Positions 11,472 through 14,963 of a DNA stretch of 64,000 bases are shown here, piece by piece. The DNA lies in assembly GCF_900169565.1 (NCBI RefSeq), contig NZ_LT828648.1, forward strand, positions 186,001 through 250,000, in the 5' to 3' direction. The notes below the pieces were generated by a model, which saw nothing but the letters and a program-made list of their open reading frames with translations, was not told the origin of the DNA and made no database searches. Origin of the DNA: Nitrospira japonica. Lineage in GTDB: Bacteria; Nitrospirota; Nitrospiria; Nitrospirales; Nitrospiraceae. The first letter of the stretch is position 1. Every line of letters begins with the position of its first letter. Made by a program: the position numbers and the translations under genes.

Positions 11472-11801
11472 CTACGCGTGTCCGCTGCCTTCCGCTTCCT
11501 CAAAATCGCCGAGGAGTTCCTCCAACTCGTCGAGTTCCTTCTGATCGACGCGTTGAAATTCGACGCCAAACTGGTTCGGCTCGACCCATCGGACCAAGGC
11601 CTCCGGAATCGAGACCGGTTCTTCAACCCCGGGAATCATCAACCGGATCACGATCACCTTTCCCGGATAGACCTCCAAGCCGCTTTCAATCTTCGCCCCG
11701 CCGAGCGACAGATCGACGGTCGTGCCCTCGACCTCGTGTGAGTTGCCGCACAGCAACCCATTGATCTGAGCCGGGACCCGTCGATGCCTTCTGCGTTCCA
11801 T
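11472..11801 (-). CDS. PilZ domain protein
   Basis: A 109-residue single-domain PilZ protein, a family that binds cyclic di-GMP. The N-terminal RxxxR motif is in MERRRHRRVPAQI and the second motif is DLSLGGAKIES (D/NxSxxG), so both ligand-contacting motifs are intact. The start at 11801 follows GAGGAGG eight bases upstream; the open frame reaches 11897 but lacks such a site. The acidic C-terminus (ELDELEELLGDFEEAEG) is unusual and may be a protein contact. Convergent with the small Cys-rich gene. Confidence 0.87.
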   Translation of the reverse strand: MERRRHRRVPAQINGLLCGNSHEVEGTTVDLSLGGAKIESGLEVYPGKVIVIRLMIPGVEEPVSIPEALVRWVEPNQFGVEFQRVDQKELDELEELLGDFEEAEGSGHA

Positions 11802-11946: not shown

Positions 11947-11955
11947 TGCTACACT
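11947..11955 (+). promoter_or_regulatory. Extended -10 promoter directly before the first paralogue
   Basis: TGC-TACACT (TGn plus -10) ends six bases before the ATG at 11962. Initiation about seven bases after the box would fall on the start codon, so the mRNA is predicted to be leaderless. No convincing -35 or Shine-Dalgarno is seen. Confidence 0.5.
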
Positions 11956-11961
11956 TGGAAC

Positions 11962-12393
11962 ATGGCTCTTTCATCCCAATCGACCGCCCTCGTTCCGGTC
12001 GATCCCCGCAGGCGCATGCTTCTAATGGTCCGCGAACAGCTGATGAGCCTTCACGGCGCGCTGATCGTTGCCGAACAATCCTCGTACGAAGGCGTCATCG
12101 GCCCCGTCGGGTCGGTCGAAACACTTCTGGACTTGCTGCAATGCAATCCCTGGTTCACCTGGCTGCATCCCTTTTCCGATCTGCTCGTGCGGCTCGACCA
12201 CCTGCTCGACGACGACACGTTTGAAATCAGCGAGGACAACCTGGCCCACCTGCTCGGCGAACTCGAAGGGCTGCTTCGGCCGTCGATCGCGGGGGACGGC
12301 TTCGCCCGGGCCTACTTCGAAGCGTTGCAGCGAAACTCCGACGTCGTCCTCGCCCATTTTCGCCTCAAGCGCCTGCTCCCGGACGCGGCGTAA
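11962..12393 (+). CDS. Unknown helical protein, tandem paralogue 1
   Basis: A 143-residue soluble protein. It is paralogous to the gene at 12523 along its whole length: both start MALSS, share LLxLHGALIVAEQ/LLGLHKALIIAEQ, the strongly conserved core NPWFTWLHPFSDL/DPWFTWLHPLSQL, RLDHLLDDD/RVDELLDAD, LLRPSIAGDGF/LIRPSEEGDGF, and FEALQR/YEALQR. Predicted to be nearly all alpha-helical. No signal peptide or cofactor motif. The open frame extends upstream to 11800, but similarity starts at this ATG and a -10 box lies six bases before it. Function unknown. Confidence 0.75.
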   Translation: MALSSQSTALVPVDPRRRMLLMVREQLMSLHGALIVAEQSSYEGVIGPVGSVETLLDLLQCNPWFTWLHPFSDLLVRLDHLLDDDTFEISEDNLAHLLGELEGLLRPSIAGDGFARAYFEALQRNSDVVLAHFRLKRLLPDAA

Positions 12394-12507
12394 TCCCCAC
12401 CGGAGCTTTGCCGACCGCACAAACCGCCGTCTCCCTTCCCTGCTCTTCGTCCGACCAGTCGAACCCGTCGCTTTTCTCCTCGAATGCCCAGCATTTTTTC
12501 TCTGACC

Positions 12508-12516
12508 TGTTAGAAT
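12508..12516 (+). promoter_or_regulatory. Extended -10 promoter directly before the second paralogue
   Basis: TGT-TAGAAT ends six bases before the ATG at 12523, the same spacing as in front of the first paralogue. This again predicts a leaderless transcript. Confidence 0.55.
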
Positions 12517-12522
12517 AGATCC

Positions 12523-12954
12523 ATGGCCCTGTCGTCGCATCACCGTACGCTGCCTCCGACGATAATCCATCGACAAGCCCTGCTCGACCTCCGACGCGGA
12601 TTATTGGGACTTCACAAGGCGCTGATCATCGCGGAGCAATTGACCTATGAGCGAATCAACGGCCGCGTCGCTTCGACCGGGCAACTGCTGCAGCTGGTCT
12701 TGAACGACCCCTGGTTTACCTGGTTGCATCCCCTCTCCCAGTTGGTCATCCGCGTGGACGAATTACTCGACGCCGACAGTGACTTGACGTCGGCCGAAGT
12801 GGACGAACTCGTTTTGGAAGTCCGCAGGTTGATCCGGCCGTCCGAAGAAGGCGACGGATTCGAACGAAGTTACTATGAAGCGCTTCAACGGGCTCCCGAC
12901 GTCATCTTCGCGCACGTCGAAGTGAAAAAGCTCCTCACCAAGGCCGCCGCCTAG
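12523..12954 (+). CDS. Unknown helical protein, tandem paralogue 2
   Basis: A 143-residue protein, the same length as its upstream paralogue and similar throughout. The best conserved block is PWFTWLHPLSQLVIRVDELLDAD, with the YEALQRAPDVIFAHVEVKKLL tail also shared. Helix-rich, no membrane segment or recognisable catalytic motif. The conserved Trp, His and Pro in the core (WFTWLHP) could form a binding pocket. Likely a local duplication in which both copies kept their own promoter. Function unknown. Confidence 0.78.
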   Translation: MALSSHHRTLPPTIIHRQALLDLRRGLLGLHKALIIAEQLTYERINGRVASTGQLLQLVLNDPWFTWLHPLSQLVIRVDELLDADSDLTSAEVDELVLEVRRLIRPSEEGDGFERSYYEALQRAPDVIFAHVEVKKLLTKAAA

Positions 12955-12961
12955 CGTCCAT

Positions 12962-12990
12962 GTGATTTCGTCCCGTCAGTTTTAAATCAC
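12962..12990. terminator. Inverted repeat between convergent genes, possible terminator
   Basis: Perfect 7-base arms GTGATTT (12962-12968) and AAATCAC (12984-12990) around a 15-base loop at the convergent end of paralogue 2 and the PG0541-like gene. The stem is AT-rich, so termination is only a possibility. Confidence 0.4.
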
Positions 12991-13287
12991 TTGCGTGCAG
13001 GGCCACGCGAAGACGCGAAGCGCCGGCTTCTTCCACCCCGGATGCTTCGCCGCCTCCTCACACCAAGCCAGGACCGAGTTCGTCACACGCGTCACGTGAT
13101 CGTCGTCGAGCGACACCAGAATGACGGTGTTCGTTCCCGGGAAGAACGACAGCCCATCGGCGGGACCGGTCTGACCGTAACCGATCGTCTGGTTGACTTC
13201 GGTGAAAGCCCGCACGTCGCACTTGTGAAGCAGCTCATGCACCCGTTCTTTGAGCGAGGAACGAAAGACCACCATCAGCATCTGCAT
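12982..13287 (-). CDS. PG0541-type PII-like protein
   Basis: A 101-residue protein resembling the PG0541 family of transporter-associated, PII-like ferredoxin-fold proteins: a start like MVVFRSSLKERVHELLHKC, then VRAFTEVNQTIGYGQTGP, FPGTNTVILVSLDDDHV and the terminal LRVFAWPCTQVI. Family members usually sit next to RND or other efflux genes and may sense a nucleotide or metal. No transporter adjoins this copy. GGAGG lies seven bases before the ATG. The family assignment is from pattern recall. Confidence 0.68.
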   Translation of the reverse strand: MQMLMVVFRSSLKERVHELLHKCDVRAFTEVNQTIGYGQTGPADGLSFFPGTNTVILVSLDDDHVTRVTNSVLAWCEEAAKHPGWKKPALRVFAWPCTQVI

Positions 13288-14522: not shown

Positions 14523-14963
14523 TTACATTCGTTCCTCATCGAGTTCGATGACATCCGCCCAGGTAGACACGGGCGGAAGCGCGCTGACCGCCACACCCCG
14601 CTTCGCGGCGACCTCCTTCAACCGGTTCTGAAACCGCTGGCGGGCTGGATCATCTTTGGGCGCTGAAGTCAGTAGTCCCCGACTCCACTGAACGACTTCG
14701 TCCTGCGTCAGATCTTTTTTCCCGTGCGCGGCAACCCAGGCCAGCAACTCATCGTCTGTCCCGCCTGCCAGTGTCCGCTGTTCGAACGCCTTGGCGTCGA
14801 TACCCAGAAAGTCGATCAGGTACTTATCGAACCCGACCGTGATGTAATTGTAGTCTTGAATGAGCCCGGCGTTGCGGAGACGGATCTTGTCGATAAACCG
14901 CCCGAGATGGGCGATGCCGCCGAGAAGAGACTTCGGACTGCGGGGATACCGGCCTTGCGTCAT
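14523..14963 (-). CDS. DUF5069 domain protein
   Basis: A 146-residue cytoplasmic protein with the DUF5069 pattern: YPRSPKSLLGGIAHLGRFIDKIRL at the start, GFDKYLIDFLGI in the middle and GGTDDELLAWVAAHG after it. The family has no established function. A GGAGG lies nine bases before the ATG. It precedes the polytopic membrane protein by 11 bases in the same direction. The C-terminal third, including PPVSTWADVIELDEERM, also fits the family. Confidence 0.82.
   Translation of the reverse strand: MTQGRYPRSPKSLLGGIAHLGRFIDKIRLRNAGLIQDYNYITVGFDKYLIDFLGIDAKAFEQRTLAGGTDDELLAWVAAHGKKDLTQDEVVQWSRGLLTSAPKDDPARQRFQNRLKEVAAKRGVAVSALPPVSTWADVIELDEERM

Follow-up and report, generated by a model that had tools for sequence, protein, structure and literature searches.

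The window analyzed here is a 64,000-nucleotide stretch of the 4.08-Mb genome of Nitrospira japonica, and it carries two tandem genes, on the same strand, for small proteins of one family. Gene A (11962-12393, +) encodes a 143-aa, all-helical protein that we assign to the PWFTWL family, and its start codon, read from the translation, is shared by its orthologues. An alternative start at 11800, which would give a 197-aa ORF overlapping a PilZ gene on the opposite strand, was dismissed for lack of conservation among those orthologues. Gene B (12523-12954, +) encodes a paralogue of the same length. The initial annotation was right about the 143 residues of each protein, but it described the resemblance through three named motifs; because A and B are 49% identical over their full length (E 2e-41), they have far more than these in common. 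The sequence ALQR, which had been described as a shared tail, is indeed present in both proteins, but at residues 120-123, about 20 residues short of the C-terminal end. The neighbors of the pair are PilZ, NlpC, and P-II-like genes. The last of these adjoins gene B (12982-13287, -) and encodes a small protein whose match to the Pfam P-II model (E 9e-5) falls just under the curated cut-off.

Each gene is preceded by an extended -10 box that lies exactly six bases ahead of its ATG, as had been noted earlier and as can be read directly from the window. The box of gene A, TGC-TACACT (11947-11955, +), is made up of TG at 11947-11948 and TACACT at 11950-11955, and the spacer TGGAAC separates it from the ATG at 11962. 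The box of gene B, TGT-TAGAAT (12508-12516, +), has TG at 12508-12509, TAGAAT at 12511-12516, and the spacer AGATCC before the ATG at 12523. Thus, in both cases TGn directly precedes the -10 hexamer and the first T of TANNNT falls at -12, a position that orthologues keep. The GCCTGCTACACTT box of gene A is retained in A orthologues from several genera, and a ACCTGCTAAAAT-type box is retained across B orthologues. A T-rich tract, CATTTTTT (12492-12499, +), occupies -31 to -24, 12-19 bp upstream of the B hexamer, and is partly conserved at the same position in B orthologues. The reported lack of a Shine-Dalgarno sequence is borne out by predicted anti-SD duplex energies of -2.6 kcal/mol for A and +0.2 kcal/mol for B, compared to -8.0 kcal/mol for a third copy, paralogue C.

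Orthologues were collected in a single scan of a species-level genome collection plus 198 genomes of the phylum, and their upstream regions were anchored at the start codon. The profile built from 48 non-redundant regions (80% cut-off) has the consensus CCTGnTAnAnT, with T in 73% of rows at -15, G in 73% at -14, T in 69% at -12, A in 90% at -11, and T in 77% at -7. Information reaches 0.6-1.5 bits at most positions from -17 to -7, compared to about 0.1 in the region from -60 to -32, and is partly raised over the T-tract; no TTGACA-like consensus is seen at -35 to -30 in these 48 rows. If the A of the ATG is taken as +1, the conserved block, with TG at -15/-14, TA at -12/-11, and T at -7, lines up position for position with a sigma-70 extended -10 element. 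Comparison therefore strongly supports the earlier suggestion that both mRNAs are leaderless. The block could also be imagined as an operator or some other DNA or RNA regulatory site, with the mRNA starting further upstream and carrying a leader that does not depend on a Shine-Dalgarno sequence. Conservation of the CC before the TG and of the T-tract does extend beyond a minimal -10 consensus, but the fit to the sigma-70 register, the lack of any palindrome by eye, and the absence of the block from members that bear a Shine-Dalgarno sequence or are embedded in operons make such a site very unlikely.

In the model that we favor, A and B are transcribed separately as monocistronic genes, and each has its own sigma-70 extended -10 promoter (TGn-TANNNT) with no recognizable -35 element. 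Given the 6-bp discriminator, transcription would begin at the A of the ATG; the resulting mRNAs would be leaderless, and their 5'-terminal AUG would be translated without a Shine-Dalgarno sequence. A TANNNT motif about 12 bp upstream is an established mark of leaderless genes (PMC3160421), and in mycobacteria a 5' ATG or GTG suffices for leaderless translation (PMC4633059). Our literature search found no map of transcription start sites for Nitrospira, and the RNA 5' ends and the mode of translation are deduced here from sequence comparison, which makes leaderless A and B mRNAs highly probable. It is rather unlikely that the promoter is real but the start is shifted by a few bases, leaving leaders of 1-4 nt or a clipped AUG and making leaderlessness only approximate. 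The spacing between box and start codon does vary from 5 to 7, and is 9 in the N. defluvii clade, as a shifted start might have it. However, a spacing of 6 is the most frequent and places +1 on the A of the ATG, a preferred purine start, and the block holds its register while the discriminator and flanking DNA drift.

The arrangement stands out from the surrounding genes. A TANNNT motif lies 5-7 nt before the start in 25 of 31 non-redundant Nitrospiraceae A/B genes, whereas only 48 of 758 neighboring non-family ORFs have one (6.3%, vs 4.2% at a control distance), a difference with a Fisher value of 1e-22 when kinship is ignored and related sequences are included in the counts. When the first three candidate starts of each ORF are considered, the extended form TGNTANNNT lies 5-7 nt before a start in 6 of the 758 neighboring ORFs, and three of these are family members that had passed the filter, which leaves 3 of 755 elsewhere. 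The background from the organism's own genome covers 464 kb of its 4.08 Mb. Because TANNNT is near its control level and TGNTANNNT is nearly absent among these other ORFs, leaderless-looking starts are judged to be rare in these Nitrospiraceae genomes, and the PWFTWL family is an exception.

Acidobacterial members of the family, which are about 40-48% identical or lower, carry TANNNT at a distance of 6 or 7 in 12 of 18 loci. One acidobacterial clade has the box in all eight of its rows in the tree, and all acidobacterial cases come down to about three clades. In the same acidobacterial regions, 22 of 297 genes, family members included, have TANNNT at a distance of 6. This milder general excess agrees with the leaderless genes reported for Acidobacteria, which average about 13% (PMC3160421). 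These two observations would suit the view that leaderlessness in the family is a background habit of the genomes concerned and has no special meaning. We consider this unlikely, since in Nitrospiraceae TANNNT at 5-7 nt is near control and hardly any gene outside this family has the extended box. One acidobacterial contig (L155, 6748-7831) also carries a gene that starts with MLVLGIETSCDETAA and looks TsaD-like by eye; TTAGAAT lies six bases before its ATG, and judging from this box the gene is probably leaderless as well.

Paralogue C, which resides elsewhere in the same genome (L002, L180), offers an internal contrast. All 17 non-redundant C genes have a Shine-Dalgarno sequence (about -5 to -12.5 kcal/mol) and none has the box, so that by the TANNNT rule 25 of 31 A/B rows are leaderless compared to 0 of 17 C rows (Fisher 2e-8). 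C is part of an operon that also contains pirin, DsbA-like, glyoxalase/VOC, and Rieske-FMN genes. Across 24 C loci, the partners are VOC/glyoxalase (22), a DsbA-like oxidoreductase (18), a second VOC (18), pirin (15), NmrA-like (14), Rieske-FMN reductase (13), and DUF5069 (11).

Where A or B has lost the box, a Shine-Dalgarno sequence or coupling to the upstream gene is usually found instead. In an A subclade of four loci (L007, L014, L019, and L057), the box is missing, the gene overlaps the upstream NlpC gene through TAATG, and Shine-Dalgarno energies range from -4.7 to -7.6. Another locus (L081) has a displaced TGGTACAAC with a GGAGG between it and the ATG, and a Shine-Dalgarno energy of -9.3. 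In the N. defluvii clade, the box lying 9 nt from the ATG is often or partly decayed, and only a weak GGTGAT-like sequence is present. Two B genes (L024 and L065) have neither the box nor, by the cut-off used, a clear Shine-Dalgarno sequence.

The history of the box can be followed on a tree of 71 non-redundant members, although this tree is weak at its deep forks. On it, the leaderless label switches 6-7 times, compared to a mean of 24 when labels are shuffled. The box is already present in Nitrospiraceae lineages that diverged ahead of the A/B split, so it appears to have been copied when the gene was duplicated and to have been retained since. The initial annotation had proposed that the promoters were either duplicated with the genes or kept by selection, and both seem to apply: the box predates the split and was retained while its flanks drifted. 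The arrangement would then be older than the A/B duplication, copied with the gene, and held by purifying selection. On the evidence of these alignments, this promoter architecture and history are likely to be as proposed, and the model as a whole, joining promoters, leaderless translation, and history, is likewise the probable best explanation. The presence of the box in both Nitrospirota and Acidobacteriota means that it is either ancestral to both or was gained several times. Members on contigs labeled Phycisphaeraceae (L038), Nitrosospira (L040), and Verrucomicrobiales (L056) group with or beside those of Nitrospira, and these labels probably reflect binning contamination.

The proteins themselves belong, as first thought, to a family without known identity, with no match above cut-off in Pfam, NCBIfam, PHROG, or PADLOC. 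A PDB sequence search gave no significant homologue (best E 0.095), and the weak matches to mS40, STING, and cullin, all above E 0.09, were treated as chance. Structure prediction, which had been recommended at the outset, gave an AlphaFold2 model of the gene B product from 41 sequences, with six helices, a mean pLDDT of 91.7, and a pTM of 0.84. A Foldseek search with this fold returned nothing significant (best E 0.22, no convincing TM-score), and low-ranking matches to YtfE and YicC, above E 0.09 and with poor TM-scores, were likewise set aside as chance. The searches found no phage or viral homologues, and an origin as a phage gene was therefore excluded. The product is probably a small cytosolic helical-bundle protein. 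In the 41-sequence alignment, R17, L34, E38, E43, L58, P63, W64, F65, W67, L68, G110, G112, Y117, R123, V127, and H131 are invariant, and metal binding by the conserved H31, E38, and H131 was considered as a candidate property. Cyanobacterial plasmids also carry homologues; there the family gene overlaps one for pirin (directly so on three plasmids) and has a cupin gene after it. Further homologues occur in Cupriavidus. No known role is attached to the family, and those members that do have normal leaders, namely paralogue C and the homologues from cyanobacteria and Cupriavidus, fall on separate branches and are used here as contrast.

Gene neighbors hint at function. C and the cyanobacterial homologues are linked to pirin, cupin, glyoxalase/VOC, DsbA-like, SnoaL-like, and Rieske-FMN reductase genes, and from this we tentatively suggest a possible role in redox or electrophile detoxification, in which the protein would act as an accessory or bind small molecules; the A/B neighborhood provides no part of this link. 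A literature search for work tying together pirin, glyoxalase, DsbA, hypochlorite, and SnoaL yielded nothing useful. The proteins might instead be stress factors associated with the ribosome or translation, a role that would suit leaderless mRNAs, which 70S ribosomes can initiate according to a review (PMC9031893), and that no fold or family match contradicts. However, no ribosomal or translation gene was recognized beside the members examined, and C and the cyanobacterial homologues sit among redox enzymes, so this idea is improbable. A DUF5069 gene also lies near the A/B pair (14523-14963, -) and near paralogue C (L180, 1748-2209). Such genes turn up near 13 of 22 A/B loci and near 11 of 24 C loci, a pattern that hints that DUF5069 and the PWFTWL family are functionally connected.

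Leaderless genes led by TA have been described in Actinobacteria, Deinococcus-Thermus, and Acidobacteria in a 2011 survey from which Nitrospira was absent (PMC3160421). A and B resemble these in having a -10 box right before the start, a predicted +1 on the start codon, and no Shine-Dalgarno sequence, but in Nitrospira genomes there is little sign of leaderless genes beyond this family, and the A/B box is of the extended TGn type and has been followed across paralogues and genera. Similarly, A and B share with extended -10 sigma-70 promoters the TG one base before the hexamer and the lack of a good -35 element, whereas their box sits 6 bp before the ATG and not ahead of a 5' leader. Operons with pirin, cupin, glyoxalase (VOC), and DsbA-like genes house paralogue C and the cyanobacterial homologues, but A and B stand alone with promoters of their own.

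Leaderless genes are already known; what is new is the conservation of the arrangement across a family, with natural switches. Such genes are usually tallied per genome, whereas here a natural experiment exists within single genomes, where two gene copies for the same protein are predicted to be leaderless and one has a Shine-Dalgarno sequence. Relatives add natural conversions, including TAATG coupling and a shifted box with GGAGG between it and the start. This within-genome contrast and these conversions make selection for leaderless translation testable. The pair also draws attention to an unnamed and widespread protein family tied to pirin/glyoxalase operons. It is a speculative possibility that leaderless initiation itself has been selected, with the 5'-terminal start kept or regained in Nitrospirota and Acidobacteriota. 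If this is true, a redox-stress protein would still be made when ordinary 30S/Shine-Dalgarno initiation is impaired, and the copies that moved into operons would have switched to Shine-Dalgarno translation.
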